Made by a program: the position numbers and the translations under genes
Shown here: piece by piece, positions 14,709-34,495 of the stretch
Layout: each line of letters opens with the position of its first letter
Numbering within the stretch: the stretch's first letter is position 1
The notes under the pieces: model-generated
Told to the model about the DNA's origin: nothing
Seen by the model: the letters and a program-made list of their open reading frames with translations, nothing else
The model's database searches: none
Source of the DNA: Candidatus Firestoneibacteriota bacterium
GTDB lineage: Bacteria; Oederibacteriota; D2-FULL-39-29; CAIOVX01
Direction: 5' to 3'
DNA: 39,528 nt
Assembly (NCBI GenBank): GCA_903861835.1
Contig: CAIOVX010000054.1
Coordinates: 1-39,528, forward strand

Positions 14709-17525
14709 ATGGCCCATAATTTCATCAACATAAAAGGCGCGCGCGAGCACAACCTGAAAAACTTTGACATTTCCATACCCCGAGACAAACTGGTTGTAAT
14801 AACCGGACTTTCCGGATCCGGGAAATCTTCGCTTGCTTTCGATACCATTTACGCGGAGGGTCAGCGCCGCTATGTTGAGTCTCTATCAGCTTACGCGAGG
14901 CAGTTTCTCGGTCAGATGGAAAAGCCGGATGTTGATTACATTGACGGGCTTTCACCCGCGATAGCTATTGAGCAAAAGACGCCTTCACACAATCCTCGTT
15001 CCACCGTAGGGACCGTAACGGAAATATATGATTACTTGAGACTGCTCTATGCCCGCATCGGCATTCCGCATTGCCATCAGTGCGGAAAAATAATTGAAAA
15101 ACAGTCTGCGGAGCAAATAACAGACAAGATTCTTACCTATGAGGCAGGAAGTAAACTGCAGATTCTCGCGCCGGTCATCTCCGGGAGAAAAGGCGAGTAT
15201 CAGAAGCTGCTGGACGGCATCAGGAAAGAGGGTTATGTCCGGGTTAGAATTGACGGCAAGGTGCATGATATTGGCGAGGATATAAAGCTCGAAAAGAACA
15301 AAAAACACAGCATCTCAGTGATAGTTGATCGTATTACCGTCGGTCCTGAATCGCGGAAAAGAATAGCAGGTTCCGTTGAGGCAGCCCTGAAATTGGGTGA
15401 AGGCACGCTAACGCTTATTGTAAACGATGGCAAAGAAATACCCTTCTCCGAGAAATTCGCCTGTTTAGACTGCGGCACAGGCATCAGTGAACTGACACCA
15501 CGGATGTTCTCTTTCAACAATCCCTTCGGCGCGTGTCCGGAATGCGGGGGCTTGGGACAGAAACTTGAGATAGACCCTGACCTCGTAGTGCCGGACAAGG
15601 ATAAGAGCCTTGACGGCGGGGCCATAGCGCCCTGGAGCAGCAATACCGCCTTCTATTACCAGAGCATGCTAAAGGCTGTAGGCAAGCATTACGGCTTCAG
15701 GACAGATGTACCCTTCAAAAATATAAAAAAAGAGCATAAAGATATAGTTCTTTATGGTTCAGGCGAGGAAAAGATAAAGTTTAACTTTACCTCATCGCAG
15801 GCTACCCATTCTTACACCGGCAAGTACGAGGGCGTTCTGCCTAACCTTAAAAGACGTTTTACGGATACGGAATCAGAATATATTAGAAATGAAGTCATCG
15901 GGCACTATATGCGGAGCAATAAATGTCCGTCCTGCAACGGCGCCAGGCTGAAGAAAGAGACCCTGAGCGTAAAGATCGCTGGCAGGAATATCAATGAGGT
16001 GACAGGCCTCAGCGTAAGCGAGTGCCTGGACTTCTTCAAAAATATTAGTTTGAGCGAGCGCGAGGCTCAAATAGCAAAGCAGGTCCTTAAGGAAGTAAAG
16101 GCAAGGCTGGGGTTCCTGGCGAATGTCGGTCTGGGATACCTTACGCTTAACCGCGCGGCTATGACCTTGTCAGGCGGAGAGTCTCAGAGAATACACCTTG
16201 CCACGCAAATCGGGGCTTCCTTGGTAGGCGTGCTTTATGTGCTTGATGAACCCAGCATTGGGCTTCACCAGAAGGACAACGAAAAATTATTGAACACGCT
16301 TAAAACGCTCAGAGACCAGGGCAATACCGTAATTGTCGTCGAGCACGATGAAGATACAATGAGAGACGCCGATTACATTATTGACCTCGGCCCCGGCGCC
16401 GGAGCAGACGGCGGCTACGTTATTGCAGCCGGCCCGTTAAAAACAATACTTGCCTCCAAAGAATCCCTTACAGGAAAGTATCTGCGCGGTGACCTTAAAA
16501 TAAACGTGCCGCACTCAAGAATGGAATGTTCCGGTGAGAGCTTGGTCTTAAGGGGCGTTGAAACTAACAATCTGAAGAAGATTGATGCGGAATTCCCTTT
16601 AAAGTGTTTTACCTGTGTAACCGGTGTTTCCGGTTCCGGAAAAAGCTCGCTGGTGCAGGAAACGCTTTACCCGGCGATGATACATGAGTTATTCCGCACC
16701 GGAATTAAACCTGCCGGTTATCATAAGATAGAAGGCGCGGACAAGATTGATAGGGTAATAAATATTGATCAGCAGCCTATCGGCAGGACTCCGAGAAGCA
16801 ACCCTGCGACTTATAGCGGTGTCTTTACTCATATACGCGATTTATTCACTGAAACAATAGAGGCGAAGACGCGCGGTTATAATCCAGGCAGGTTCAGTTT
16901 TAACGTGAAAGGCGGCAGGTGCGAGGCCTGTGAGGGTGACGGTATTCTTAGGATTGAGATGCACTTTCTTCCCGATGTTTATGTGCAGTGCGAGGTGTGT
17001 AAAGGCAAGCGTTATAACCGGGAAACGCTGGAAGTGAGATACAGCGGCAAGAATATTGCCGAGGTGCTTGATATGACCGTTACCGTAGCGCTTGAATTCT
17101 TCAAGAATATTCCCAAGATACATTCTATTCTTCAGACACTTGAGGATGTGGGTCTCGGCTACATTAAGCTCGGACAGCCCGCGACGACGCTCTCGGGCGG
17201 CGAGGCACAGAGAATTAAACTATCGGCTGAGCTTAGCAAACGCGCCACCGGTAGGACTCTTTATATCCTTGATGAACCCACAACCGGTCTGCACTTTGAC
17301 GACATAAAGAAGCTGCTTGATGTGCTTTTCAGACTGCGCGATAGAGGTAATAGTATTGTTGTAATTGAACATAACCTTGATGTGATCAAAACTGCCGATC
17401 ATGTAATAGATTTAGGCCCTGAGGGCGGTTCTGCTGGTGGTTATGTTATCGCTGCAGGAACCCCGGAAGAGATAGTTGAAAATAAAAAGTCTTTTACCGG
17501 TAAGTTTCTAAAAAAAGTCCTTTAA
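14709..17525 (+). CDS. uvrA: Excinuclease ABC subunit A
   Basis: UvrA (938 residues, full length) is the damage-recognition ATPase of nucleotide excision repair. It has two ABC modules: Walker A motifs [14 protein letters not shown] (near residue 30) and [14 protein letters not shown] (near 645), and two LSGGE signatures ([13 protein letters not shown] and [13 protein letters not shown]). CXXC pairs for zinc are visible in [28 protein letters not shown] and CEVCKG. AAGGAATC before the ATG is a modest ribosome-binding site. It is the last gene of the biosynthetic run. Confidence 0.97.
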
Positions 17526-17553
17526 CCTGTCTCTGTTCATAATATCCCTAGTG

Positions 17554-17582
17554 TTGAAATGTTCTGCCATAATTGCTATAAT
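17554..17582 (+). promoter_or_regulatory. Promoter of the Crp/Fnr-ftsX-envC operon
   Basis: TTGAAA at 17554-17559, a 17-bp spacer, and TATAAT at 17577-17582 preceded by TGC, an extended -10. The predicted start near 17589 leaves a short leader with TTAGAGGAG before the regulator ATG. No FNR- or CRP-type palindrome is evident overlapping it. Confidence 0.85.
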
Positions 17583-17605
17583 TAACAGGTTTTTAGAGGA
17601 GAAAT

Positions 17606-18286
17606 ATGGATAAAAAAGCGCTTTTGAGGAAAGTTCCGATTTTTTCCGGAATCTCTGCAAAAGATCTCAATGCCATAGCAAAAACTATGACCTTGAAGAA
17701 ATATGTGAAAGGCGCTTATCTTTTCTTTGAAAAAGAAGAAGGAAAGACGCTTTATGTAATAATACACGGGCTAATTAAGATATTTACCGCCGACAAAAGC
17801 GGGAGAATTAAAACCCTTACCTACCTGAAAGACGGAGATTTTTTCGGTGAGATGGCCATGCTTGACCATGAAAAACGCTCGGCATCGGCCTTAGTGGTAG
17901 AAGACGCTGAAGTGTTCGCGCTAAACCGGAAAGATGTTCAGAAGGAGCTGCTAGACAATCCCCTAATTGCCTTGAAATTGCTAAGGACGCTAAGTTCCAG
18001 GCTCAGATACTGCGACAAGCAGATTGAAGACCTGACTTTCAGAAACCTTCCGGGCCGGGTAGCCAGCACTCTTTTGGATTTAGCCGCGAGATACGGGAAA
18101 AAAACTCCGGCAGGAATAAAACTTGATCTTAAACTTACGCACCAAGACCTGGCTGACATTATCGGAACCGCAAGAGAGGTAATTACCTCTATACTCGGAG
18201 ATTTTCGTGAGGCCGGCTGCGTTCTGGATATCGACAAGCACCTTATCATTAAAGATGAAAAGAGTCTTAGAAGCTGGATCACCTGA
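17606..18286 (+). CDS. Crp/Fnr-family transcriptional regulator
   Basis: A 226-residue regulator with an N-terminal cyclic-nucleotide-binding-type beta-roll (about residues 10-125; GDFFGEMAMLDHEKRSASA is the phosphate-cassette region with the E and R-S-A pattern) and a C-terminal winged helix (about 150-215; LTHQDLADIIGTAREVITSI is the recognition helix-turn-helix). No N-terminal FNR-type cysteine cluster is present, so it is Crp-like rather than oxygen-sensing FNR; the ligand is unknown. Its TGA shares one base with the ftsX ATG, so it occupies the place usually held by ftsE. Confidence 0.9.
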   Translation: MDKKALLRKVPIFSGISAKDLNAIAKTMTLKKYVKGAYLFFEKEEGKTLYVIIHGLIKIFTADKSGRIKTLTYLKDGDFFGEMAMLDHEKRSASALVVEDAEVFALNRKDVQKELLDNPLIALKLLRTLSSRLRYCDKQIEDLTFRNLPGRVASTLLDLAARYGKKTPAGIKLDLKLTHQDLADIIGTAREVITSILGDFREAGCVLDIDKHLIIKDEKSLRSWIT

Positions 18287-19149
18287 TGAAAATATTTCAT
18301 GAAGCCCTAAATACCATCAGGAAAAATAAATACGCGGCGGCAACAACGGTAGCCGTGCTCGTTTGTAATATGCTGATACTTGGAATTTTTGGTCATGTCA
18401 TACGAAATTTGAATCAGTTCCTTGATAATGTTAACTCAAGCGTCCAGATAACGGCTTATACTTCCGAGAAACTTAAACCGGAAGATTTAGTGCAGCTGGT
18501 TGCAAGTATCAAGGCACAGGACGGTGTTAAGGATTGCCATTATGTCCCTAAAGAGGAAGCAATAAAGGAGTTCGCGGGTGATCCTGATTTCAAGAGCTAC
18601 GTCGACAATGTAAAAGAGAACCCCCTGCCAAACTCCGTTAAGGTTGGAGTTGAGAAGGAGCACAGAAACGCGGCGGGGTTGCAGGCACTCGCGGCTTTTG
18701 TGGGAGCCTTGCCCGGAATTACCGAAGTCAATTATAGGAAGGACGAAGCGGAAAGGTTTTTCAAAATAATATCGAGTATTGAAGTATTCGCTGCCGGATT
18801 TTCCTTGATATTGATACTCAGTTCGGCTTTTGTAGTCACAAGCACGGTAAGGAATAATATTCATTCGCGCAGGGGAGTCATTAACTCCATGCTTAAGTCC
18901 GGGAGCAACGCAAAAGCGTTAAAAAAGGTATTCGTGCTTGAAAGTGTCTTGCTTGGCGCCGCCGGAGGGGTAATTGCCGCGTCTCTGCTGGCGTTCTTAG
19001 AGTTCACGGTTGTAGGAATGATAAACCTGCTTTGGTCCGGGCGTTGGGTACGGGTGGACGCGGCGCTTTTCTTCGGCATTGTCCTTTTTTCAGCTCTTCT
19101 AGGTTTCTTGAGCAGTATTTTTATAAGGATAGAGCAATCAAATCATTAA
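18286..19149 (+). CDS. ftsX: Cell division protein FtsX
   Basis: FtsX (287 residues) is the membrane partner of the FtsE ATPase and transmits a division signal to periplasmic wall-hydrolase activators. Predicted topology fits: TM1 at about 17-38, a large external domain (about 40-160, including VKENPLPNSVKV, a family motif), then three TM segments near 165-190, 215-240 and 255-278. The start shares one base with the Crp/Fnr stop; its stop shares one base with the envC start. No ftsE lies upstream or elsewhere in the window, which is unusual. Confidence 0.9.
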   Translation: MKIFHEALNTIRKNKYAAATTVAVLVCNMLILGIFGHVIRNLNQFLDNVNSSVQITAYTSEKLKPEDLVQLVASIKAQDGVKDCHYVPKEEAIKEFAGDPDFKSYVDNVKENPLPNSVKVGVEKEHRNAAGLQALAAFVGALPGITEVNYRKDEAERFFKIISSIEVFAAGFSLILILSSAFVVTSTVRNNIHSRRGVINSMLKSGSNAKALKKVFVLESVLLGAAGGVIAASLLAFLEFTVVGMINLLWSGRWVRVDAALFFGIVLFSALLGFLSSIFIRIEQSNH

Positions 19150-20300
19150 TGAAACCCATAAAAACCGCTTTTTTCATAGTAAGTTTTCTGGCGCTCTCCC
19201 TGCCTCTTTTTTGCCAATCCTCAGAAGAGAATAAGAAAGAACTTGAGAAAGTCAGCAAACAAATACAGGACAAAATAGAGCAACAGTATAAACTCTTCGA
19301 GGAAGAAAAAAGCGTTCTTTACCAGGTGCAGAAGTTCGATCAGAAACTTGATGAACTAAAGAAACGGGTTGATAACTGCAACAAGAAACTTGAACAGTAC
19401 GAGCAGGATATAGGCTATTCAAAGGAGCAAATAGGGAGCGAGAGCAAAAGACTCAACAAGGTTGAGCAAGACCTCAGCGATAGAATGCGCCAGCTATACA
19501 AGGAAGGCAGTTTTAAGAGCCTCAAGACCCTGATGTCGGCAGTCAGCTATGAAGATTTTATGAAGAAATACGACCTGCTTGTAACAATCGCTAAAAAAGA
19601 TGTCGAGTTGAAACAGAATATTCTTAAAAAGAAAAAGGAACTCTCGGGCAAGAAGAGCGACTTTGAGAAAAAATATGTTAAATATGAGAGTTACCGGAAA
19701 ACTGCAGCAGAGAAAAGCGTGGAGCTTACGGAGCAGAAAAAAGAAAAGAGCGGCTTGCTGGGCGGAATAAAGGACCAAAGAGCGCTTTATGAACAGGCAA
19801 TAGCGGAGTTGAAGCAGCAGTCAGGCAAGCTGGAGAATATAATTAAGCAGTATGACGCGGATAGCAGGAAAATTGAAATTCCCAGATCTGAAGGAGATAT
19901 TAATAAAGTAAAAGGGAAACTTCAGCAGCCTTCGGAAGGAAAAGTAACATCTTTTTTTGGTAAGTATAAACATCCAAAATTCAATGTTTATGTCTTTAAC
20001 AATGGGGTAGAGATAACTTCAAAGCTCAACGACCCGGTTCATCCGGTTTACTCGGGTGTTGTAATCTTTGCAGATTGGTTTAAGGGTTACGGTAAAACGG
20101 TTCTGGTGGATCACGGTAATAATGTTGTTGGTATCTATGGGCATCTTTCCGAAATCTCGGTCAACTTCGGGCAGAAAGTAGCTGCTGCGGATATGTTAGG
20201 GAAAGTCGGCGACACAGGATCTTCCGAGACACCTACACTATATTTTGAAATACGAAAGGAAGGAAAACCGCAAAATCCGCTTGAATGGCTTGCTAAATAG
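19149..20300 (+). CDS. envC: EnvC-like murein hydrolase activator (degenerate LytM/M23)
   Basis: A 383-residue exported protein with a signal peptide (MKPIKTAFFIVSFLALSLPLFC), a long coiled coil (about residues 30-250) and a C-terminal LytM domain. The ATG at 19149 directly follows ftsX. The LytM zinc ligands are replaced: the first HxxxD region reads VFNNGVEI and the last HxH reads TPTLYFEIR. The surrounding text (VIFADWFKGYG, LYFEIRKEGKPQNPLEWL) closely matches E. coli EnvC, an inactive LytM protein that binds FtsX and activates amidases. The role is thus amidase activation during septum splitting, not peptidoglycan cleavage. The amidase itself is not in the window. Confidence 0.9.
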   Translation: MKPIKTAFFIVSFLALSLPLFCQSSEENKKELEKVSKQIQDKIEQQYKLFEEEKSVLYQVQKFDQKLDELKKRVDNCNKKLEQYEQDIGYSKEQIGSESKRLNKVEQDLSDRMRQLYKEGSFKSLKTLMSAVSYEDFMKKYDLLVTIAKKDVELKQNILKKKKELSGKKSDFEKKYVKYESYRKTAAEKSVELTEQKKEKSGLLGGIKDQRALYEQAIAELKQQSGKLENIIKQYDADSRKIEIPRSEGDINKVKGKLQQPSEGKVTSFFGKYKHPKFNVYVFNNGVEITSKLNDPVHPVYSGVVIFADWFKGYGKTVLVDHGNNVVGIYGHLSEISVNFGQKVAAADMLGKVGDTGSSETPTLYFEIRKEGKPQNPLEWLAK

Positions 20301-20340
20301 CAGCGATACTCAAAGAAAGCTACAGTAGGAGAGGAGTTTT

Positions 20341-21771
20341 ATGAAAAAAGTCTTGATTGCCATAATGACAGTTTTCGCAATTCTGCCTTTGTTCGGCGAA
20401 AATACGCCGGAACAGGATCGGTTGCTGGTCGATAAAGTTTACAAGGAACTTCCCGTAATGAGTGAGTCGCTCGATTACATTATTAAAAATTACGTGGATG
20501 AAGATAAAATAAAAGGAGATCTCTTATTCCACGGCGCCATTAAGGGAATGATCGGCACACTTGATGTCCATAGCCATTTTATGGATAATGATCAGTTTAC
20601 AGAGCTGCAGACAGAAACGTCAGGGGTCTTTGGCGGCATAGGAGTTGAAATAACGCTGAGAAGCGATGTCCTTACAATAGTAGCTCCTATTGAAAAAAGC
20701 CCGGCCTGGCAGCAAGGCATACGAAGCGGCGACAGGATCATAAAGATCGAGGGTGAGCTTACGAAAGGTAAAACTGTTGACGATGCTATAAAAAAAATCC
20801 GCGGACCGAAAGGCACAAAGGTAAAGTTAAGTATCGCGCATGAAGGCGAAGATCAGTTGGTTGAAGTTGAAATAACCAGGGACAACATAAAAATACAAAG
20901 CGTTGATTCGTATGTGTTGACTGATAACACAGGATATATAAGGCTTCGTAATTTCATTGAAAGCTCCGGGCGTGACATAGGCGCAGCGCTTGAGAAACTG
21001 GGAAAAGCCAATGTAAGAGGAGTAATCCTGGATTTGAGAGGCAACCCGGGCGGGTTGCTTGATGTCGCCGTTGATATCTCCGACAGATTTCTGTCAGGAG
21101 ATAAACTTATTGTTTACACGCAAGGCAGAATTAATAATATGAATCGCAAATATACTTCTACCGGCGGCGGCGCTTTTGGTGAAAAGGTCCCAATGATTGT
21201 CCTGGTAAATAAAGGCAGCGCTTCCGCCTCAGAGATAGTTACAGGGGCATTGCAGGATAATAAGCGAGCGGTGGTTATGGGGACGCAGTCATTCGGAAAA
21301 GCATCAGTGCAGAGCATCTTTAGGCTTTCCGACGGGTCAGGACTCAGACTTACGACTGCTTATTACTATACTCCGCTTGGCAGAAAGATTCACGAGAAAG
21401 GCATTACGCCAGACATAATCAGCGAGGATAAATACCCGGGTGACCAGGTCTGGAAATTAAACTATTATGAGCATTTCGCTGCCTATGCCAAAAAATATGT
21501 CAAGAGCAATACGGCGGCTGACGAGAAAGTAAAAGTTGACGACAAAATGGCAGATGATATGATAAGAGACGCAAGAGCTGCAGGCTTTGTGGTTAGCGAC
21601 CTTGAAATCGAGAAGAATAGGCAGTTCTTGAAGAACTTCATAAGAGCTGAGATAATCCGCACCCTTAAGGGAGACTCTGACGGTGAAAGAGCCAGAGTAG
21701 AAGATGATGACACCATTAAGAAGGCAGTAGATCTTTTTAAGTCTGCCGAAATAATGAACACAGTTAAGTAG
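20341..21771 (+). CDS. ctpA: Carboxyl-terminal processing protease (S41)
   Basis: A periplasmic serine protease of 476 residues. It has a signal peptide (MKKVLIAIMTVFAILPLFGE), an N-terminal helical region, a PDZ domain (about 95-175, with GIGVEITLRSDVLTIVAPI) and the S41 catalytic domain. The Ser-Lys dyad is S295 in GSASASEIV and K320 in SFGKASVQS. C-terminal residues after 380 are charged and probably regulatory. It lies 40 bp after envC with AGGAGAGGAG before the ATG. The ftsX-envC-ctpA order is a recurring wall-remodelling cluster. Confidence 0.95.
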   Translation: MKKVLIAIMTVFAILPLFGENTPEQDRLLVDKVYKELPVMSESLDYIIKNYVDEDKIKGDLLFHGAIKGMIGTLDVHSHFMDNDQFTELQTETSGVFGGIGVEITLRSDVLTIVAPIEKSPAWQQGIRSGDRIIKIEGELTKGKTVDDAIKKIRGPKGTKVKLSIAHEGEDQLVEVEITRDNIKIQSVDSYVLTDNTGYIRLRNFIESSGRDIGAALEKLGKANVRGVILDLRGNPGGLLDVAVDISDRFLSGDKLIVYTQGRINNMNRKYTSTGGGAFGEKVPMIVLVNKGSASASEIVTGALQDNKRAVVMGTQSFGKASVQSIFRLSDGSGLRLTTAYYYTPLGRKIHEKGITPDIISEDKYPGDQVWKLNYYEHFAAYAKKYVKSNTAADEKVKVDDKMADDMIRDARAAGFVVSDLEIEKNRQFLKNFIRAEIIRTLKGDSDGERARVEDDDTIKKAVDLFKSAEIMNTVK

Positions 21772-21783
21772 CGGCAGAAGCAC

Positions 21784-21872
21784 GGAGGGTTAGTTCTAAT
21801 GGCTAAGACACCTGACTTGAAATCAGGAGTCCCTCACGGGACATGCAGGTTCGAGTCCTGCACCCTCCGCCA
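21784..21872 (+). tRNA. tRNA-Ser(UGA)
   Basis: A type II tRNA. The acceptor arms GGAGGGT and ACCCTCC pair, the discriminator is G and CCA is encoded. The anticodon stem CCTGA/TCAGG holds the loop CTTGAAA with anticodon TGA at 21818-21820. The long variable arm GTCCC-TCAC-GGGAC and a T arm GCAGG-TTCGAGT-CCTGC confirm serine identity. It begins 12 bp after ctpA, and I see no separate promoter. Confidence 0.96.
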
Positions 21873-21968
21873 AATCTAACAAAGCGACATTTTTCGCTGA
21901 TCTAATTGTTTCGCAGTCGCTCCATTAGACAGTTTCAAGTAAACTTAAAGTTTATTAAGGAGAAGTCC

Positions 21969-23027
21969 GTGGAGAAAGAATCAATGAGCGGGAAGGAGAG
22001 ATGGCTTGCAGTCCTTAACAGGCAGAAACCTGACAGGATACCGATGGACTATTGGGGCACAAAAGAAGCCGGCGAAAAGCTTATGAAACATCTCTCGCTT
22101 CCAGACATGAATGCTGTGTTTAAGAAACTTCGGATTGACAAGCCCTTTTGGGTCGGCGGCAAAGAGAAGGGACCCAAGAAATTGGACGGAAGCGACATGT
22201 GGGGGTTTAAGTTCCGCAAGGTAGACTACGGGAACGGTTCCTATGAAGAGGTCGCAAACCACCCGCTCGCGGACTTTAAAAGTATAGATGAGTTGAATAA
22301 TGGTTATGTGTTCCCTACGGCGGATCTTTTTGATTATTCACACATAAAAGCAGAGGTAGAAGCGCATCCGGACAGAATCGTGCAGGGCGGAGGCTCTGAA
22401 CCGATGCTTACCTACAAATACCTGCGCGGCGATGAACAGGCTTTTATTGATTTTATAGAGAACCCTGAGTTCATGCAATACATCCTTGATAAAATTATGG
22501 CTTTCAGCTACGAGAATACAAGACGCGTCCTGGAACAGGCCCCGGGCAAGATACATATAGTATATGTCGCGGAAGACCTCGGTTCGCAGGACGACCTTCT
22601 TTACAACCCGGTCCATATCAGGCAGTTCCTGTTCCCTAATATGAAAAAGATGATGGATTTAACGCACCAGAACGGAAGCTATGTATTCACGCATACTGAC
22701 GGGGCATCTAGAAAGATAATACCGGAGCTTATTGAACTGGGCATGGATGTCCTGAACCCTATCCAGTGGAATTGCAAAGGTATGGGCATAGAAGGGTTAA
22801 AGAAGGATTTTGGCGACAAGATTATATTTCACGGCGCGGTAGATAATCAGCATTGCCTGCCTTTTGGCACAGTTGCTGAAGTGAGAGAAGAAGTTAAGAG
22901 AAACATTGAGGTGCTGGGGAAAAACGGCGGATATATTCTCGCGCCCTGTCATAACCTTCAGGTTGTCGGACCGTCTGCGAATGTGGTTGCTCTCTACGAG
23001 GCGGGGTTGGAATACGGCTCGAATTGA
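21969..23027 (+). CDS. Uroporphyrinogen decarboxylase-like protein (URO-D superfamily)
   Basis: A 352-residue TIM-barrel protein of the URO-D/MtaA superfamily. It starts with GTG 21969 (AAGGAG six bases upstream) and reads KERWLAVLNRQKPDRIPMDYWG, the family opening. MtaA-type methyltransferases bind zinc through HxC plus a distal Cys; here the first motif is HTDGA (H242, Asp in place of Cys) while a distal C327 remains in APCHNL. No other heme genes or corrinoid proteins are nearby. True porphyrin decarboxylation is unlikely. Such proteins often sit among sugar-catabolism genes, as here; the reaction is unknown. Confidence 0.75.
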   Translation: MEKESMSGKERWLAVLNRQKPDRIPMDYWGTKEAGEKLMKHLSLPDMNAVFKKLRIDKPFWVGGKEKGPKKLDGSDMWGFKFRKVDYGNGSYEEVANHPLADFKSIDELNNGYVFPTADLFDYSHIKAEVEAHPDRIVQGGGSEPMLTYKYLRGDEQAFIDFIENPEFMQYILDKIMAFSYENTRRVLEQAPGKIHIVYVAEDLGSQDDLLYNPVHIRQFLFPNMKKMMDLTHQNGSYVFTHTDGASRKIIPELIELGMDVLNPIQWNCKGMGIEGLKKDFGDKIIFHGAVDNQHCLPFGTVAEVREEVKRNIEVLGKNGGYILAPCHNLQVVGPSANVVALYEAGLEYGSN

Positions 23028-23039
23028 AAGTGATAGGGT

Positions 23040-23068
23040 TTGAAATGAATAGAACTATGTGATACAAT
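23040..23068 (+). promoter_or_regulatory. Promoter of tRNA-Ser(GCU)
   Basis: TTGAAA at 23040-23045, a 17-bp spacer, and TACAAT at 23063-23068 preceded by TGA (extended -10). The predicted start near 23075 lies about 29 bases before the mature tRNA 5' end. Confidence 0.75.
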
Positions 23069-23103
23069 CAAACTCGTTTTCATTAAGAACTAAAGTTTCA
23101 CAC

Positions 23104-23194
23104 GGAGAGATGGCCGAGCGGCTGAAGGCAACCGCCTGCTAAGCGGTTGTACTCCAAAAGGGTACCGAGGGTTCAAATCCCTCTCTCTCCGCCA
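23104..23194 (+). tRNA. tRNA-Ser(GCU)
   Basis: A type II tRNA with encoded CCA. Acceptor arms GGAGAGA/TCTCTCC, D arm GCCGAGCGGCTGAAGGC, anticodon stem ACCGC/GCGGT with loop CTGCTAA (anticodon GCT at 23138-23140), a long variable arm, and T arm GAGGG-TTCAAAT-CCCTC. It reads AGC/AGU codons. Confidence 0.97.
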
Positions 23195-23202
23195 TAAAAT
23201 AT

Positions 23203-23236
23203 AAAACCCCCGCGTTTAACGGGGGTTTTGTTTTTG
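23203..23236. terminator. Bidirectional intrinsic terminator
   Basis: AAAACCCCCG (23203-23212) and CGGGGGTTTT (23220-23229) form a 10-bp stem, followed on the plus strand by GTTTTT. On the minus strand the stem is followed by TTTTATATTTTAT. It ends the tRNA transcript and the convergent gatZ operon, whose last codon is at 23242. Confidence 0.92.
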
Positions 23237-23241
23237 GATTA

Positions 23242-24537
23242 TTAGCGCGAAAATCCGCAGGCTTTTGAGTATAGAGAGGTCACTTCCATGATTTTGGCGT
23301 GGATTAGCGGACGCGGCCCGCTGGAAAGCGACCCCATCTTTACATTATCCGCTTGCGCAGGCAGGTACCTCTCAATGAGCGGGAGAGGAATTTTCACTCC
23401 GGATAGATTATTCAAGAGTAATGATATTGCCAGTTCGAGTTCCGGCAAATGCCAGTAATAGCGGCACCTGTCGCTGTAACTATACTTTCTTTTATCCGCA
23501 ACTTCTGATTCTGTCCCGTTATAGTAATTCTTCCAGTAGGAAGTATTCTTGAGCATTACTGACTCTAAAGTATTCTCAAGCTCTGAGAGTTTAACGGATT
23601 TTCCCGGGAATAGTTCTGCCTCAATCTTCTCAAGCGAGAACAAGGCCTCTCTGAAAGCAAAAGTAAGCCACGGGCCGACTTTCAACACTGCAAAATGGTC
23701 CCGCACAAGTTCTTTAAGCGCGCTGCCCGGCTGGTAGTCAGTGGAATGAGCTTCAAAAATAATGTTCGGCTGATTTTCAATGAAGGTTTTAAGGCCTGCG
23801 GCGTTCTCCGGAACATAAGTATCAACTGATGAGTCTCCAAATTCAACTCCCGGCTGTACAACAACCGCCTGTACTCTATCCCAGGCGGACTGAAGGCCTT
23901 TTCTTTTGAAGGCATTTTGAATTTCTTTAACGGTCTCCGCTACACCAGCCGCGCATGTAATATGAATCTTGCCATGGCCGAGAGCAGCCCCGCCGGGGGG
24001 GGGCACTTCAGTCCCCACTATGTAGGCGGGAAGTGTATCAGCGGATTTATCCCAGGCAGCCTCTGCCGCAGCGCAAAGCTCCGCTGCCCGTTCCGCCGCA
24101 ACCCTGGGAGCCGGAGCTTCTCCGGAATCATCGGAACATTTCATACTGGCATCAAGATGCAGTTTTGAAAAGCCTGCCTTGACATAGGCAGCCATCAGCA
24201 CGCGGGCTTTCTGCATAGCAGAACCAGAGTTTTCATTGCGCCAGGTGTTCGGACCAAGATGATCACCGCCGAGGATGAGTTTTTTTGCCGGAAACCCGAG
24301 CTCCTTCGCCATATTTGTTACAAAGGCGGCGAAATCTGCGGGTTTCATTCCGGTATAGCCGCCAAATTGGTCAACCTGGTTGGAGGTTGCTTCAATGCAG
24401 AGGGTTGAATTGTCCTTTATAGCCTGCAGAATTGAAGCCTCTATTACGAAACGGTTTGCCGAACAGATGCTGTAGAGGCCGGTATTTTTACCGCTCTTCT
24501 GATCCTTTACTATATTGCTTAGCGGGTTAGGCTTCAT
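23242..24537 (-). CDS. gatZ: GatZ/KbaZ-family protein (tagatose-bisphosphate aldolase accessory or tagatose-6-P epimerase type)
   Basis: A 431-residue TIM-barrel protein of the GatZ/KbaZ family. Family blocks include CSANRFVIEA, CIEATSNQVDQFGGYTGM, LILGGDHLGPNTWR, KLHLDASMKCSDD, YIVGTEVPPPGGA and FEAHSTDYQ. In enterobacteria GatZ/KbaZ supports the class II aldolase GatY/KbaY, but no aldolase gene is here. Some stand-alone members of this family have been reported as 4-epimerases of hexose 6-phosphates (fructose/tagatose), which would suit the context. The gene overlaps agaS by ATGA and is last in the pfkB-agaS-gatZ operon. A run of nine G (23995-24003) lies in it, but the frame and the motif there are intact. 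Confidence 0.85.
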   Translation of the reverse strand: MKPNPLSNIVKDQKSGKNTGLYSICSANRFVIEASILQAIKDNSTLCIEATSNQVDQFGGYTGMKPADFAAFVTNMAKELGFPAKKLILGGDHLGPNTWRNENSGSAMQKARVLMAAYVKAGFSKLHLDASMKCSDDSGEAPAPRVAAERAAELCAAAEAAWDKSADTLPAYIVGTEVPPPGGAALGHGKIHITCAAGVAETVKEIQNAFKRKGLQSAWDRVQAVVVQPGVEFGDSSVDTYVPENAAGLKTFIENQPNIIFEAHSTDYQPGSALKELVRDHFAVLKVGPWLTFAFREALFSLEKIEAELFPGKSVKLSELENTLESVMLKNTSYWKNYYNGTESEVADKRKYSYSDRCRYYWHLPELELAISLLLNNLSGVKIPLPLIERYLPAQADNVKMGSLSSGPRPLIHAKIMEVTSLYSKACGFSR

Positions 24538-25718
24538 TTATAGATGGTAACGCCTTTAACAACCCGGCTAATCACGCCTGTCTTGCTCGGGCTGTCAGGC
24601 TTATGCCCTAAGTTGAGGGATTTGAATAAACCAAGAAGTTGACCGGCAACAACATCGGTGAGCACGCGATAATCGTCGGAAACCGCCGTCCCTTCAGGAT
24701 AAAGTTCAATTGTATGAGGAGAGAGAGAGAGTATTTCTTTGTCGGCTTTGGCGCAGATTATTACCGCTGCCATACCCTGCCTGCCTTTCTTTAACTGCTG
24801 CAGAAGGTCCAGCTCATATCTCCTGGCTCTCGAGTTTTCCGACAGAGCCGCGAAAATAAGGCATTCATTATTAATGAATACCTGTGGACCATGTCTTAAT
24901 CCGAGAAACGAGTCAAACCTGCAGGCGACTTTGCCTTCCGTCATTTCCATTAATTTCAGGTGGCATTCCTGCATGGTTCCGAAAAGATTGGAGGAGCCAA
25001 GATAGCTGACCCGCTTAAAAGGCCTGCGGCAGAGCGCGGCAAGCATATCGGAATAATCGTTGATTATCCGCGCCGCTCCGGCTGCTGCCCTCTTAACTTC
25101 TGAAGTGAAAGTGTCCGTGTCGTTAAGCGTTCCCAGGAAAAGTCCGGTAAGAGCCATAGTTGAAAAGGAACCGGTCATTACTAAAGAGCGATCATTTGTT
25201 TCTTCCGGCAGGATGATACAGTAAGAGTTTGGGTCCCGGTCAGTTCTTTTTGCCAGCGCGCCGTCCTTGTTGCAGGTTATGACAAGTTGGCGCGCGTGCC
25301 TGTAATATTTCCTAATGATATCATAAGTTGCGACTGACTCCGGTGAGTTGCCTGAACGCGCGAAAGAAACAAAGAGGTAATTGTTGTCCGCTGCAAGCAT
25401 GCTGCCCGGATGTGTAACGAAATGGGTTGAAGGAATTGAGTAGACATCGCGGTTAAGCGCCTTCCGAAGGCCGGTGCTTACGGAAGTTCCAATGAACTCG
25501 GAAGTTCCGGCGCCGGAGAATATAAGCGCTGATTTTTTGCTGCCGTAGAGGCCTCCTTCTTTAAGAAAAGAGAATATACTTTTTTTTGAGCCGACCAGAC
25601 CCTCGGCGGTCCTAAGCCAAAGAGAAGGCTGCTGCGCAATTTCAGCGGGAGTATGCGTAATACCTTTTGCAGTTTTTGCCTTTTCTGATGCCTCAAGCAA
25701 TTTGAAAAATGAGTTCAT
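24534..25718 (-). CDS. agaS: AgaS-like SIS-domain sugar-phosphate isomerase/deaminase
   Basis: A 394-residue protein with tandem SIS domains, similar in length to AgaS (about 384). Phosphosugar-binding loops are IFSGAGTSEFIG and FVSFARSGNSPESVA in the first domain; RYELDLLQQL and LRHGPQVFIN lie in the second. AgaS is assigned to deamination/isomerisation of galactosamine 6-phosphate to tagatose 6-phosphate, which would feed GatZ or the kinase beside it. It overlaps both pfkB and gatZ by ATGA. A glucosamine-type substrate is an alternative. Confidence 0.85.
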   Translation of the reverse strand: MNSFFKLLEASEKAKTAKGITHTPAEIAQQPSLWLRTAEGLVGSKKSIFSFLKEGGLYGSKKSALIFSGAGTSEFIGTSVSTGLRKALNRDVYSIPSTHFVTHPGSMLAADNNYLFVSFARSGNSPESVATYDIIRKYYRHARQLVITCNKDGALAKRTDRDPNSYCIILPEETNDRSLVMTGSFSTMALTGLFLGTLNDTDTFTSEVKRAAAGAARIINDYSDMLAALCRRPFKRVSYLGSSNLFGTMQECHLKLMEMTEGKVACRFDSFLGLRHGPQVFINNECLIFAALSENSRARRYELDLLQQLKKGRQGMAAVIICAKADKEILSLSPHTIELYPEGTAVSDDYRVLTDVVAGQLLGLFKSLNLGHKPDSPSKTGVISRVVKGVTIYK

Positions 25719-26638
25719 TTTCCAACCTCCATGAAATCAATAATATCTTTATAGGATGATTTTGCGGCAGTTCCGCCGGTAAACTGACAGCTTCTAGCTC
25801 CGGCGGCATTGGCGAAATGCAGGGCCTCGTTAAAGGACAGTTTCCTTTCAAGAATCGCGTAGAGGAAACCGGCGTCAAAATTATCACCCGCGCCGGTAGT
25901 GTCTTTCACTTCTACTTTGTAAGGGTAGGCCTTAACGGCTCTGCTCCCGCTTATTGCTATAGCGCCTTTTTTTCCGAGTTTTACTACCGGGCAGGCGGTT
26001 AGTAACGCAAGCTTTTCGCAGGCCTCTTCTGCCCCGGGACAGCCGGTGATCGAGACCGCCTCGTCAGAATTTACGAAAAGATAATCCAACTTCCTTAGCC
26101 AATCGTCCAAAAACTCCCATTTTTCCGAAGCATCCCACTGAGTGTCAATAGAAGTCGTAATGCCTGCCTGTTTTGCAAAAGCAAGCAGGGATGAAATCTT
26201 GCTTTTGAATTTTAACTGTTGGTAAGGTCCGGCGAAATGAATATGCTTGTAAGCGGAGAGAGCGTCCGGCGTCAACATAGAGCCGGTGTATTCTGCAATG
26301 GTTCCGGGATAGGTGACCTGAGACCGGATGCTTTCCCGGATGAGATTCACGGTTACACCGGTCTTTACTTTATCTGTTTTTTCTACAAGTTCCGCCGTAA
26401 TACCGGAATTTTTCATGGCATTTATCATAAATACGCCGTTATCATCGGTTCCGGCTAGTCCTGCGAAGGCTGCTTTGCCTCCAAGAAAGCTGTAAGCAGA
26501 GGCGGTTATAAAAGCAGAACTCCCGGGTACAGTTTCGAAACCAGCGCACGTTATTTCACGGTCAGGCAGGGGCATTGAGGCAAGTCCATACATAAGGATG
26601 TCAATATTGATGTCCCCTATGAAAAGCGTTTTATTCAT
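25715..26638 (-). CDS. PfkB-family carbohydrate kinase
   Basis: A 307-residue ribokinase-superfamily kinase. N-terminal FIGDINIDILMYG and the anion-hole/catalytic motif DTTGAGDNFDAGF (about residues 245-257) identify it. By operon context it may phosphorylate tagatose 6-phosphate, fructose 6-phosphate or a free sugar; the sequence does not decide. CGGAG precedes the ATG. A TATAAT on the minus strand (26657-26662) lies 18 bases before the start, giving a very short leader, but its -35 is poor. First gene of the operon. Confidence 0.88.
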   Translation of the reverse strand: MNKTLFIGDINIDILMYGLASMPLPDREITCAGFETVPGSSAFITASAYSFLGGKAAFAGLAGTDDNGVFMINAMKNSGITAELVEKTDKVKTGVTVNLIRESIRSQVTYPGTIAEYTGSMLTPDALSAYKHIHFAGPYQQLKFKSKISSLLAFAKQAGITTSIDTQWDASEKWEFLDDWLRKLDYLFVNSDEAVSITGCPGAEEACEKLALLTACPVVKLGKKGAIAISGSRAVKAYPYKVEVKDTTGAGDNFDAGFLYAILERKLSFNEALHFANAAGARSCQFTGGTAAKSSYKDIIDFMEVGK

Positions 26639-26717
26639 TGGAAGTCTCCGTTAATGATTATACACGAGTGACATTCAGAAATCATCTTTAAATTGGCGCC
26701 GTGGGAAATGAGATATT

Positions 26718-26746
26718 TTGCTTTTAAAGCGCCTTTTTGATATAAT
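26718..26746 (+). promoter_or_regulatory. Extended -10 promoter placed for a leaderless transcript
   Basis: TTGCTT at 26718-26723, 17-bp spacer, and TATAAT at 26741-26746 preceded by TGA. The GTG start codon of the next gene is at 26755, only 8 bases past the -10, so transcription should begin at or within a few bases of the start codon. No ribosome-binding site is present or possible. Confidence 0.75.
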
Positions 26747-26754
26747 CATAACCT

Positions 26755-27330
26755 GTGAAAAAGAAGAGGGTTGCAAGAAATAGACGCAAGGTGAAGAAGC
26801 CGTCGGCCGGCGTTGTCCGGCTGGAGTTAAGTCGAGGCTTAGCCAAACTGCGCGCGCAGTTGAAATTGTCCCTATCAGGCCTACCGCGCACGAGCAGTAT
26901 TGTTAAAGTAACCTCCGGCCAGGAACGCCTCAGGAAAGAGGTAAGGAAACTCCAGGCAGAATTCAACCTCTATCTATCCCGGCAGAAGGCAAGACCCGCT
27001 TCAGTAAGCGGCGGGTTTGAGACAGAGTTTCGGACCGTAGAAAACGAAAAACGCCTGCTTCTGAACAGGATACGGGAACTTGAAGCTTCCCGTCTTGAAA
27101 GAGCTGAAACGCTTGTGACGTTAAAAAGAGGCAGTAGCTCACACGAAACTGCGCTTGAGGCGCGGGTCAGGGATCTTGAGCGGAGACTTAAGACTGCAGA
27201 AGAGAATTACCTTAAGGAAAAAGAGATTTTGGAGCATAAGATTAAAACGGCTCAGGCGGAATCTGAAAAGTTCAGGCTTGAGCTTTCAGTTAGAGCGATG
27301 TTTGATAAACCGGGGGAAGACAGGAAATGA
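26755..27330 (+). CDS. Basic coiled-coil protein of unknown function
   Basis: A 191-residue hypothetical protein with GTG start. The first 20 residues are extremely basic (KKKRVARNRRKVKKPSAG). From about residue 65 to the end it is a heptad-rich coiled coil full of E, K, R and L, for example RDLERRLKTAEENYLKEKEI. There is no signal peptide or membrane segment, so it is cytoplasmic and could bind nucleic acid. I do not recognise a family. It overlaps trxB by ATGA, so the two are co-expressed. A later GTG at 26791 is possible but has no good ribosome-binding site. Confidence 0.7.
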   Translation: MKKKRVARNRRKVKKPSAGVVRLELSRGLAKLRAQLKLSLSGLPRTSSIVKVTSGQERLRKEVRKLQAEFNLYLSRQKARPASVSGGFETEFRTVENEKRLLLNRIRELEASRLERAETLVTLKRGSSSHETALEARVRDLERRLKTAEENYLKEKEILEHKIKTAQAESEKFRLELSVRAMFDKPGEDRK

Positions 27331-28247
27331 CCAACAAAACACACGACATAGCCGTTATAGGTGCAGGGCCGGCCGGTCTTACGGCGGCTATCTATGCTGC
27401 TCGAGGCAAGTACGACATACTAATCATCGAAAAGGCGGTGGTCGGCGGCACAGCGCTAATGATTGATAACCTTGAGAATTACCCGGGCTTTCCTGAGGGC
27501 ACAAAGGGCTATGAACTTGCAATGAAGATGGAAGCGCAGGCGAAAAAGTTTGGCGCGGTCTTTATTAATGACGACGCTCAAAGTATTAAAAAAGAAAATG
27601 GTGTTTTTCGCATAACCTGCAGTTCTTCATCGTATTTTGTTAGAGCTGTTGTAATAGCAAGCGGGTCAAAACCCGTAAAATTAGGCGTCCTGGGCGAAGA
27701 GAAACTTATAGGCAAGGGAATATCCTGGTGCGCAACCTGCGACGGGGCATTTTTCCGCAATCAGCCGATAGCTGTAGTTGGAGGCGGTAATTCTGCTCTT
27801 CACGAGGCCTTGTACCTCACAAGATTTGCTTCAGAAGTATATGTAATTCACAGGCGGAATGAATTCAGAGCCTCACCTTACTTACAGGACAGACTTAAGA
27901 CTAACCCAAAGATACATCTCGTGCTGGGTTCAGTAGTAGAGAAAGTTATTGGAGAGGATAAGCTTGAGAAAATAAGTATTAAAAATGTTGCCGATGGTTC
28001 ACTTTCAGAACTTCAGATAAGCGGACTTTTCGAAGCTGTAGGAAACACACCGAACACAGGCTTCTGCAGGGATATCCTTAAGCTTGACGAGAAAGGCTGC
28101 ATAATTACGGATGATTCTCTTGAAAGTTCTGAACCGGGAATCTTCGCAGTGGGGGATGTAAGGACAACAAAACTGAGACAAGTTGCGACGGCAGTGGGTG
28201 ACGGCGCGTATGTTGCGGCAGGGTTGGAGAAATACCTTTCAAAATAA
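27327..28247 (+). CDS. trxB: Thioredoxin reductase
   Basis: TrxB (306 residues) is a flavoprotein that reduces thioredoxin or a related partner with NADPH. The FAD motif is VIGAGPAGLTAAIYAARG, the redox pair C135-C138 lies in WCATCDGAFF (the same positions as E. coli), the NADPH site is VVGGGNSALHEALYL with HRRNEFRAS, and GIFAVGDVR binds FAD near the end. The HRR motif supports NADPH preference. Its start overlaps the coiled-coil gene; no thioredoxin gene is in the window. Confidence 0.94.
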   Translation: MTNKTHDIAVIGAGPAGLTAAIYAARGKYDILIIEKAVVGGTALMIDNLENYPGFPEGTKGYELAMKMEAQAKKFGAVFINDDAQSIKKENGVFRITCSSSSYFVRAVVIASGSKPVKLGVLGEEKLIGKGISWCATCDGAFFRNQPIAVVGGGNSALHEALYLTRFASEVYVIHRRNEFRASPYLQDRLKTNPKIHLVLGSVVEKVIGEDKLEKISIKNVADGSLSELQISGLFEAVGNTPNTGFCRDILKLDEKGCIITDDSLESSEPGIFAVGDVRTTKLRQVATAVGDGAYVAAGLEKYLSK

Positions 28248-28270
28248 TCTTAGCTTAATGGAGGAATAAT

Positions 28271-29134
28271 ATGAAAAAGTGCATCAACTATTGGACTTTT
28301 CCAGGCGGACTCGAAGGCAAGGTAAAAGTAAGCGACGCTTTAAAAATGGCCAAGAAGTACGGTTATGAAGGTATCGAACTTTGTTTCGGCGAACGCGGCG
28401 AAGTCTCACCTGAAACCACGAAAGAACAAGCAGCTGAAATGCTGGCTGAAGCGGCTAGGAATGGCATTGAAATCACAAGCCTTGCAACCGGAATTTACTG
28501 GGGTGCGAATTTCGGATCTTCCGCTCAAGCTGACAGAGATAAAGCCGTAAAGCTCACTGAAAAATACCTTGAACTCGCTTCCTGGCTTAAGATTGACAGC
28601 ATCCTTGTGGTCCCGGGCGCTGTAGATGTCTTCTTTAATCCGGCGGCAGAAGTCGTTTCCTATGACGATGTCTATAAAAGATCGGTAGAATGTTTCAAGA
28701 AACTGCTGCCTGTGGCTGAAAAGTTTAACGTTGTAATGGCGATAGAGAATGTCTGGAACAGGTTTATAATGAGCCCGCTCGAAATGAAATCCTATGTTGA
28801 CGGATTTGGCAGCAAATACATCGGTGTATATTTTGATGTAGGCAATGCGATACCTTTCGGCTACTCGCAGCAGTGGATCAGAATACTGGGAAGCCGCATA
28901 AAGAGGGTTCATTTCAAAGATTTTAGGTTTGCAGCCGGTAACGGAGGGATGACGGGTTTCGTAGATCTTTTAAACGGCGATGTTAACTGGACGGAGATTA
29001 TGCAAGCCTTTAAGGAAATAGGCTACGACGGCCCGGTGGCTGCCGAGATGATCCCCTATTACAATCATCATCCGCTCGCCCGCGTGGAGTTAACGTCTAT
29101 AGCGATGGATTATATACTGGAGCGCAAAAAATAA
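28271..29134 (+). CDS. Sugar phosphate isomerase/epimerase (AP endonuclease 2 family)
   Basis: A 287-residue xylose-isomerase-like TIM barrel. Visible metal-site segments are the Glu of YEGIELCFGE, VVMAIENVWNRF, VYFDVGNAIPFG, RVHFKDF and the late Glu of VAAEMIPYYNH, the Glu/Asp/His/Glu pattern of the IolE/Hyi/D-tagatose epimerase group. It lies 23 bp after trxB with TGGAGGA before the ATG and upstream of a Gfo/Idh dehydrogenase, a pairing typical of sugar or inositol-like catabolism. The substrate cannot be named. Confidence 0.87.
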   Translation: MKKCINYWTFPGGLEGKVKVSDALKMAKKYGYEGIELCFGERGEVSPETTKEQAAEMLAEAARNGIEITSLATGIYWGANFGSSAQADRDKAVKLTEKYLELASWLKIDSILVVPGAVDVFFNPAAEVVSYDDVYKRSVECFKKLLPVAEKFNVVMAIENVWNRFIMSPLEMKSYVDGFGSKYIGVYFDVGNAIPFGYSQQWIRILGSRIKRVHFKDFRFAAGNGGMTGFVDLLNGDVNWTEIMQAFKEIGYDGPVAAEMIPYYNHHPLARVELTSIAMDYILERKK

Positions 29135-29140
29135 ACTAAG

Positions 29141-29240
29141 ACGTTTGTAACGTTACTAACGTTCTTAACGTTTATAACGAATAGACGAGAGATTTTGCAT
29201 TACGTTATGAACGTTATAAACCTTATAAACGTAATAAACT
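29141..29240. repeat. Tandem 9-bp ACGTTnnTA repeats
   Basis: Four successive 9-bp units lie at 29141-29176: ACGTTTGTA, ACGTTACTA, ACGTTCTTA and ACGTTTATA. After a 25-base break, similar units resume at 29202 (ACGTTATGA, ACGTTATAA) and run into TTATAAACG and TAATAAACT. The array fills the gap between the epimerase and the Gfo/Idh gene. The 15-mer at 29157-29171 also occurs before dapL. Confidence 0.8.
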
Positions 29241-29262
29241 GTAATTTTATTTAGGAGGCTTT

Positions 29263-30297
29263 ATGCCAAAAGTAGGAATAGTAGGTTCGGGCTTCATAGG
29301 CGGAGTGCACTACGGTTCTCATTCCAAGCTCGCGGATTCGCAGGTAGTCGCTATTTGTGATATTGATGTTGAAAAAGCGAAGAAGACTGTTAGAGGTGAG
29401 GCCTCAGGCGGCAACCTGACAGTAGAAAAATCAAAACCTATAGGATTCGATCCTGAAAAAATAGAATATTATTCGGATTATGACAGGATGCTTAAAAATA
29501 AGGATATTGAGATAATTGATATCTGCTTGCCGACACATATGCACAAAGAAGCTGTAATAAAGGCGGCGAAGGCCGGCAAACATATCCTTTGCGAGAAACC
29601 TATGGCGCTTAACACCAAAGACTGCAAGGAAATGATAAAGTCGGTAAAAAAAGCCGGCGTGAAATTCATGGTAGCCCATGTGATACGCTTCTGGCCTGAA
29701 TATGTCGCGCTCAAAGAGCTTATCGACGGTAAATCACTCGGCAAACTGCTCGCACTTAATCTCCAGCGGCACTCTCCGACGCCTACCTGGACGTGGAAGA
29801 ACTGGATACTTGAGGCAAAAAACAGCGGCGCTGCGGCGCTTGACCTGCACGTTCACGACACCGACTATGTGCTCTATCTTTGCGGAATGCCTAAAGCTGT
29901 TTCATCGGTAGGAGTTAAAGGTTATTCCACGGATGGAGTCGATCACTTATCCACCCAGTTCGTGTACAAAAATGGACCAAAGGTCACCGCTGAAGGCGGA
30001 TGGGCGTACGCGCCGAAGTATTCTTTTAGGATGGCTTTCTGGGCGCTCTTTGAAAAAGGCGCTGCCGAATTCTCTTCTCTGAATTACCCGATGACAGTGA
30101 CGCCGTACGGAAAGGAGCCGTTTAAACCTAAACTTCTTACCTCGGACGGCTACACCAATGAGATAGCATATTTCCTTAAATGCGTAAAGGAAAGTAAGTT
30201 TCCTTCTATTGTTACTCCGAAAGACGCGCGGGATTCAGTAGAACTTGTACTTGCCGAAGTTAAATCGGTTGAAAAAGGAAAGCCGGTTGTGTTATAA
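29263..30297 (+). CDS. Gfo/Idh/MocA-family NAD(P)-dependent oxidoreductase
   Basis: A 344-residue dehydrogenase with a Rossmann N-terminus (GIVGSGFIGGVHYGSHS), the EKP motif (LCEKPMALNTKDCKE) and the C-terminal alpha/beta substrate domain where LDLHVHDTDYVLYL supplies the catalytic Asp/His pair. TTAGGAGG precedes the ATG. The substrate is probably a sugar, inositol or amino-sugar derivative; no specific assignment is possible. It likely works with the preceding sugar epimerase. Its 3' end overlaps a promoter that probably serves tRNA-Phe. Confidence 0.9.
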   Translation: MPKVGIVGSGFIGGVHYGSHSKLADSQVVAICDIDVEKAKKTVRGEASGGNLTVEKSKPIGFDPEKIEYYSDYDRMLKNKDIEIIDICLPTHMHKEAVIKAAKAGKHILCEKPMALNTKDCKEMIKSVKKAGVKFMVAHVIRFWPEYVALKELIDGKSLGKLLALNLQRHSPTPTWTWKNWILEAKNSGAAALDLHVHDTDYVLYLCGMPKAVSSVGVKGYSTDGVDHLSTQFVYKNGPKVTAEGGWAYAPKYSFRMAFWALFEKGAAEFSSLNYPMTVTPYGKEPFKPKLLTSDGYTNEIAYFLKCVKESKFPSIVTPKDARDSVELVLAEVKSVEKGKPVVL

Positions 30298-34467: not shown

Positions 34468-34495
34468 AGAACCAAAATGTAAAGGGGGTGAAGGC

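Follow-up and report, generated by a model that had tools for sequence, protein, structure and literature searches.

We analyzed a contig of 39,528 nucleotides from Candidatus Firestoneibacteriota bacterium (assembly GCA_903861835.1, contig CAIOVX010000054.1), which is called the window below and which represents the whole of contig C54 of a 2,175,555-base genome (103 contigs, 98.03% complete). On its minus strand, a sugar kinase gene, a gene for a SIS-domain protein of the AgaS type and a gene of the GatZ/KbaZ family follow each other in the order pfkB-agaS-gatZ. The features of this locus are as follows.

25715-26638, minus strand: pfkB, open reading frame (ORF) of 307 amino acids, ribokinase-type PfkB sugar kinase, leading the operon
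24534-25718, minus strand: agaS, ORF of 394 amino acids, SIS-domain protein, candidate galactosamine-6-phosphate deaminase/isomerase
23242-24537, minus strand: gatZ, ORF of 431 amino acids, GatZ/KbaZ family, candidate tagatose-6-phosphate 4-epimerase
25715-25718, minus strand: ATGA overlap of the pfkB stop and the agaS start, read from the sequence
24534-24537, minus strand: ATGA overlap of the agaS stop and the gatZ start, read from the sequence
23201-23231, both strands: terminator-like hairpin between the end of gatZ and the end of the facing gene 21906-23027
26639-26754: intergenic space separating pfkB from the divergent gene at 26755, with TATAAT at 26662-26657 (minus strand) and GGAG 5′ of the pfkB ATG, both found by eye

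The three genes (26638-23242, minus strand) form a tight operon, and the genes flanking it on both sides lie on the opposite strand. A first-pass annotation had described it as an operon lacking the aldolase GatY/KbaY. This was borne out by the ORFs and their overlaps, and no GatY/KbaY was found in the window or in the genome, part of which may be missing. The hairpin downstream of gatZ has 12 pairs on the plus strand and 11 on the minus strand, with six G-C pairs each. The region contains seven terminator-like sites compared to 5.1 (standard deviation 2.3) in shuffled sequences, a count not above chance, and it is by its position and G-C content that this hairpin is distinguished from the other sites. 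In the intergenic region 26639-26754 the promoter scan listed no full sigma-70-like site. The G+C content at third codon positions was 0.48-0.51 for the three genes and 0.42-0.55 for eight other genes of the window, and by this comparison a foreign base composition of the operon was not seen.

The GatZ protein belongs to the Pfam family PF08013 (GatZ_KbaZ-like; 567 bits, cut-off 26.7, profile positions 1-419 of 420) and shares 47-48% identity with GatZ and KbaZ of E. coli; it lies below the NCBIfam cut-offs for KbaZ (497 of 707 bits) and GatZ (470 of 579). The first-pass annotation had assumed that this family is known only as the partner of a class II aldolase, which is out of date. According to PMC11907403, GatZ and KbaZ of E. 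coli convert fructose 6-phosphate to tagatose 6-phosphate in vivo. In a strain accumulating fructose 6-phosphate, tagatose was no longer formed once gatZ was deleted, an effect seen with no other tested candidate. Its formation was restored by gatZ or kbaZ in combination with a phosphatase and not by gatY, kbaY or fbaA in the same combination. The same paper cites earlier evidence from Agrobacterium and Sinorhizobium (Wichelecki 2015, Kohlmeier 2019), where members of the family are described as tagatose-6-phosphate 4-epimerases of galactitol routes. Unlike these routes, in which tagatose derives from galactitol, the AgaS protein of the window points to galactosamine.

The seven active-site residues named in PMC11907403 for E. 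coli GatZ (C20, E44, D87, H88, E171, H257 and K279) are all kept in the window protein as C25, E49, D92, H93, E177, H264 and K286. Six of these positions are invariant among 86 aligned GatZ proteins and the seventh, one of the proposed metal ligands, is occupied by E in 77 proteins and by D in nine; the catalytic aspartate is kept in all 86. Since the active site is kept, GatZ is probably an enzyme rather than a helper protein. Its predicted structure (mean predicted local distance difference test score, pLDDT, 88.3) matched best to the solved family members 2fiq (Z-score 51.7), a GatZ nearly identical to that of E. coli in the alignment, and 3txv of S. meliloti (50.2). The next matches were 9lhw (25.7), titled as the tagose isomerase TsT4Ease, which is taken to mean tagatose 4-epimerase, and the epimerase UxaE (6il9, 25.6), practically level with class II aldolases (at most 25.2). 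Although UxaE and TsT4Ease share the fold over 320-322 residues, they belong to another family with 9-10% identity and use uronate or free ketohexoses as substrates (6il9 by its title, 9lhw by our reading of the title), and the listed matches do not separate epimerase from aldolase function. The proposal that GatZ itself acts as a tagatose-6-phosphate/fructose-6-phosphate 4-epimerase, already made in the first-pass annotation, is well supported by the published E. coli work, the shared residues, the predicted fold and nine genomes with AgaS and GatZ but no class II aldolase (see below).

In E. coli gatZ is located beside gatY and kbaZ is clustered with kbaY, whereas no such aldolase was found here. 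No aldolase was present among the 30 ORFs of the window scanned with Pfam, ORFs 11130-18286 being covered by a six-frame search of the genome. The search for a class II aldolase of the GatY/KbaY type, which the first-pass annotation had proposed as a check, yielded one PF01116 protein in the whole genome, encoded on contig C11 and unlinked to the operon. The DeoC/LacD family PF01791 gave no match in the genome at E ≤ 0.001, with a control that was positive in 13 of 14 genomes. The C11 aldolase exceeds the cut-off of the general ketose-bisphosphate aldolase model TIGR00167 (288.8 versus 215.6 bits), and its best models are two for fructose-bisphosphate aldolase (FBA), namely the class II FBA model NF009497 (341.5 of 423 bits) followed by TIGR01859 (309.3 of 343.05). 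With the tagatose-bisphosphate aldolase equivalog TIGR01858 it reached 264.5 of 443.55 bits, a cut-off passed by GatY (539.9) and KbaY (541.4) of E. coli, to which it is 38-39% identical. A PF00365 (phosphofructokinase) gene is located about 2 kb from it. The models lean towards FBA and do not by themselves settle its substrate; a better test of its role is the pattern of presence in related genomes. GatZ was found in all four genomes of the genus, including that of the window, in none of the five others of the order and none of the 36 others of the phylum, and in one of 14 more distant genomes, where the match was partial (32 bits). The aldolase likewise occurs in 4/4 genus genomes, of which the three others (86-87% complete) have only this aldolase, one of them together with a fragment of it of 19 residues. 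Its orthologs, 84-91% identical, are present in all five order-mates without GatZ (80-98% complete), which argues that the aldolase is independent of GatZ. A GatY/KbaY elsewhere in the genome that needs this GatZ, named in the first-pass annotation as the finding that would speak against its proposal, was thus not encountered.

To compare the operon with GatZ loci of other organisms, we used an alignment of the genus members with GatZ and KbaZ of E. coli as query; a scan of genome contigs with the window GatZ alone had found no relative. The survey matched at least 594 stretches, of which 560 were confirmed and the best 80 kept, so that the 80 loci represent the best matches to the window GatZ and not a random sample. 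They were scanned with reference proteins at thresholds of 150 bits for AgaS, 90 for PfkB, 120 for aldolase and 150 for GatD. A class II aldolase was present in 27/80 loci and AgaS in 55/80, 32 of the latter having no aldolase in the locus; as contig ends truncate some of the loci, such counts are upper bounds. In the half of the GatZ tree that contains the window protein, four of 33 loci had an aldolase and nine a GatD-GatZ pair without one. For 50 of the 80 loci the source genome was compared with TIGR01858: 44 gave some match, six none at E ≤ 0.001, and eight were above the cut-off. PF01116 was searched in 25 picked genomes (18 with AgaS and GatZ and no aldolase in the locus, five blank for TIGR01858, and those of the loci L018 and L033) and matched in 13, two of them weakly (40 and 44 bits). 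None of the nine Lysobacteraceae genomes with AgaS and GatZ (eight Stenotrophomonas, one Luteimonas) had a PF01116 match, the class I FBA family PF00274 not being part of this search. PF01791 had no match in six of seven genomes and a weak one, above the cut-off (37 bits), in the L018 genome. Completeness figures are not shown for the genome sets of the TIGR01858, PF01116 and PF01791 searches.

The order pfkB-agaS-gatZ is found in two other genomes of the genus, and the third has gatZ, agaS and a partial pfkB up to the contig end. Outside the genus, it occurs with close homologs in L018 (Sumerlaeota) and L033 (Planctomycetota), with identities of 52 and 55% for pfkB and 51 and 49% for agaS, respectively. 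Among 199 Planctomycetota genomes, a PfkB at E ≤ 1e-60 was found only in the one from which L033 comes, indicating that the exact operon is rare in this phylum; the phylum of L018 lay outside that search. In the GatZ tree, made by a quick method without bootstrap, the genus belongs to a starred group of 37 rows, the others of which all come from outside Proteobacteria, and is not joined with L018 and L033, so that it is the likeness of pfkB and agaS, and not this tree, that suggests a shared origin of the operon. A Pfam scan of ten ORFs neighboring the operon in L018 and L033 did not point to a substrate: eight had no match, and the two others, in L033, matched a protein of the beta-lactamase fold and an NAD-dependent epimerase.

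The best-furnished relative seen is locus L065 on the complete chromosome of Stenotrophomonas maltophilia SJTL3. At 4683-12213 it contains in a row the genes for AgaS, a ROK kinase with N-acetylglucosamine kinase as its nearest family (295.6 of 380 bits), GatZ, a DeoR regulator, a deacetylase of the NagA type (231.3 bits, just above the cut-off of 225.65) and a sugar transporter of the major facilitator superfamily. The SJTL3 genome has neither a PF01116 nor a PF01791 match. The locus shares AgaS and GatZ with the window, and differs from it by a ROK instead of a PfkB kinase and by its linked deacetylase, transporter and regulator. It looks like an N-acetylgalactosamine (GalNAc) pathway to tagatose 6-phosphate in which GatZ would be the sole linked candidate for the next step. 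A related layout, probably with another type of deaminase, is present in L016 (4974-8278), where a GlmD-like SIS protein (200.9 of 580 bits), PfkB and GatZ are encoded in a row.

With respect to the two upstream proteins, AgaS of the window matched the SIS domain PF01380 with 31.8 bits (cut-off 25) and is 35% identical to AgaS of E. coli. Its residues E258 and H276 are the same in 57/57 aligned AgaS-like proteins and correspond to the Glu and His that are catalytic in the isomerase domain of GlmS. Judged by its family and these residues, a function as galactosamine-6-phosphate deaminase/isomerase forming tagatose 6-phosphate is plausible. PfkB matched PF00294 with 136.5 bits and, below the cut-offs, ribose-1-phosphate kinase (102.9 of 330 bits) and ribokinase (91.2 of 299.65) as the best NCBIfam models. 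It reached 67 bits with the tagatose kinase model (cut-off 420) and 57.3 of 216.4 bits with TIGR03168, the hexose kinase model of the LacC/1-phosphofructokinase (1-PFK) group, and lacC was absent among the 22 NCBIfam families listed for it at E ≤ 0.001. In sequence, too, ribokinases were its nearest relatives (75.6 bits to a solved one), and its model (pLDDT 92.6) was nearest in fold to ribokinases (Z-score about 38); Foldseek placed the sulfofructose kinase YihV first, followed by ribokinases. 1-PFK, Pfk-2 and LacC had no row in the top 50 of the fold listings, although kinship is still possible. A DTTGAGD motif starts at residue 246. The likeness to ribokinases and the distance from LacC and FruK suggest by likeness only that the substrate of PfkB is a free sugar rather than tagatose 6-phosphate. 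Judged from AgaS, this sugar might be galactosamine or GalNAc, which is the weakest step of the proposal, tagatose kinase being the main alternative.

Other genes of the genome bear on the fate of these sugars. Three PF00365 proteins are encoded, so that fructose 6-phosphate can enter glycolysis. An unlinked NagA (324 bits, above the cut-off) has MutS, ABC-transporter-like and AddB-like genes as neighbors, and its location is no pointer to galactosamine. An unlinked kinase of the 1-PFK/LacC type (226.7 bits) exceeds the subfamily cut-off of 216.4, lies below the equivalog cut-offs of both lacC and 1-phosphofructokinase, and adjoins a decaprenyl-phosphate phosphoribosyltransferase gene. As a side observation, an 899-amino-acid protein encoded next to a decaprenyl-phosphate phosphoribosyltransferase gene in locus L134 (10496-13195) matches aminoglycoside 3-N-acetyltransferases in its C-terminal part (PF02522, 166 bits).

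Taken together, we propose, with a probability of roughly 0.6, that the operon encodes a short catabolic pathway for galactosamine, leading into glycolysis at fructose 6-phosphate without tagatose bisphosphate. PfkB would place a phosphate on C6 of a free (amino) sugar, with galactosamine or GalNAc as the most likely substrate, and an acetyl group, if any, could be removed by the unlinked NagA. From galactosamine 6-phosphate, AgaS would then form tagatose 6-phosphate with release of ammonia. In GatZ, following the mechanism proposed for the E. coli protein (PMC11907403), a zinc ion would be held by H93, H264 and E177 and D92 would serve as the base; by analogy to relatives with the same residues, the enzyme would cleave and re-form the C3-C4 bond with inversion and thus turn tagatose 6-phosphate into fructose 6-phosphate. 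The latter could enter glycolysis through phosphofructokinase and the class II aldolase of the genome, and the route would require neither tagatose bisphosphate nor a second aldolase. Of the short route from amino sugars to glycolysis outlined in the first-pass annotation, the GatZ step as its core thus stood, while the steps of PfkB, a ribokinase-type protein, and of AgaS, which is below its cut-off, are plausible only.

Several observations weigh against this proposal. AgaS is widely below the cut-off of TIGR02815 (agaS_fam; 312.5 of 529.2 bits), no close characterized relative of PfkB was found, and GatZ falls narrowly short of the NCBIfam model agaZ_gatZ (TIGR02810; 549.4 of 568.8 bits), an equivalog labeled as non-catalytic subunit of class II aldolase. 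The ten ORFs at 19032-30297 include, by Pfam and NCBIfam, no transporter, deacetylase, regulator or tagatose-bisphosphate aldolase, and thus not the linked transporter, deacetylase and aldolase of the E. coli-type Aga pathway. The E. coli experiments were done in cells and not with purified enzyme, and gatZ without added phosphatase failed to restore tagatose formation (PMC11907403). The C11 aldolase is below the FBA equivalog cut-offs and has the GatY subfamily as its third-best model (296.3 of 383 bits). Among the 18 AgaS and GatZ genomes searched with PF01116, the nine outside the Lysobacteraceae have one or two such proteins away from gatZ; for the nine Lysobacteraceae, a bisphosphate route through class I FBA is formally possible because PF00274 was not searched.

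In a rival view, GatZ has no catalytic role of its own and only assists the housekeeping class II aldolase, with a kinase making tagatose 1,6-bisphosphate for the aldolase to cleave. Enteric members of the family were earlier described in this way (Brinkkotter 2002 as described in PMC11907403), and with a class II aldolase, three PF00365 proteins and the 1-PFK/LacC-type kinase the genome could in principle support a tagatose-bisphosphate route of this kind. However, the aldolase persists in all order-mates that have no GatZ and stays below the tagatose-bisphosphate cut-off, the conservation of metal ligands (with E or D at one of them) and catalytic aspartate in 86/86 GatZ proteins would be odd for a helper, and the Lysobacteraceae keep GatZ in nine of nine genomes without a PF01116 match, so that we regard a helper role as improbable. 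Another alternative concerns the kinase: if PfkB were a tagatose kinase, or one for another ketohexose, GatZ would complete the use of tagatose as in the galactitol routes of Agrobacterium and Sinorhizobium, and AgaS would provide a second entry from galactosamine 6-phosphate supplied by other enzymes, such as a further kinase and NagA. In line with this, a PfkB stands beside GatZ without an AgaS of at least 150 bits in seven of the 80 loci (in six of these a SIS protein does match, though more weakly, at 34-77 bits), the tagatose kinase model does give a score, and a Novacetimonas cluster combines a predicted tagatose kinase with a tagatose 6-phosphate 4-epimerase (PMC12405394). That score is far below the cut-off, though, agaS sits between pfkB and gatZ here as well as in L018 and L033, and the Pfam and NCBIfam scans of the neighboring ORFs revealed no galactitol-type dehydrogenase beside the operon. 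Tagatose as the substrate of PfkB is thus unlikely.

The operon might also run in reverse, as a biosynthetic route in which GatZ makes tagatose 6-phosphate from fructose 6-phosphate and AgaS adds ammonia to give galactosamine 6-phosphate for cell-surface sugars. An equilibrium of 10:90 between fructose 6-phosphate and tagatose 6-phosphate, reported for one FbaA (PMC5434028), favors this direction, and it means for the catabolic route, as a further point against it, that phosphofructokinase must pull toward fructose 6-phosphate. Glycosyltransferase genes are present in the window, though they do not adjoin the operon. Yet a sugar kinase as the first gene fits intake better than synthesis, and L065 represents a catabolic set with deacetylase, transporter and DeoR regulator, which makes biosynthesis very improbable.

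Published accounts of GalNAc and galactosamine utilization in E. coli, Shewanella and streptococci share the AgaS step to tagatose 6-phosphate with the route proposed here, but, in the parts accessible, continue with tagatose-6-phosphate kinase and tagatose-bisphosphate aldolase, AgaZ being named as the kinase (PMC4694137, PMC12118421); in PMC8063399 gatZ-kbaZ is named as aldolase. We found no description in the open-access literature of a route joining AgaS and GatZ to fructose 6-phosphate. The epimerase activity of GatZ is itself already known, and its placing in the AgaS pathway appears to be new. A broader idea, for which we see slightly less than an even chance, is that most bacterial AgaS-GatZ pairs form an aldolase-free galactosamine/GalNAc route to fructose 6-phosphate. 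The enteric tagatose-bisphosphate route would then be the exception, AgaZ/KbaZ would have to be renamed tagatose-6-phosphate 4-epimerase, and the operon of the window would be a minimal version with its own PfkB-type amino-sugar kinase. The operon offers a natural case in which GatZ could not help a class II tagatose-bisphosphate aldolase, and a better case is available in the cultivable Stenotrophomonas and Luteimonas. Should this be confirmed, annotating GatZ/KbaZ as a kinase or a non-catalytic subunit would be wrong for many genomes, reconstructions of amino-sugar metabolism would gain a short branch to fructose 6-phosphate, and the family would represent a larger pool of enzymes for tagatose production.

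Some further genes of the window were noted. Between a heptosyltransferase-type gene and one for an MgsA-type AAA ATPase, three consecutive ORFs (33823-35664) had no Pfam match at E ≤ 1e-5. The gene divergent to the operon (26755-27330) encodes a protein of 191 amino acids without Pfam or NCBIfam match, which appears coiled-coil-like by eye; similar ORFs occupy the same place in L007 and L009. At 28271-30297, genes for a xylose isomerase-like TIM barrel protein and a Gfo/Idh/MocA oxidoreductase adjoin a thioredoxin reductase gene, and judged by the sequence letters this gene group is also present in L009.

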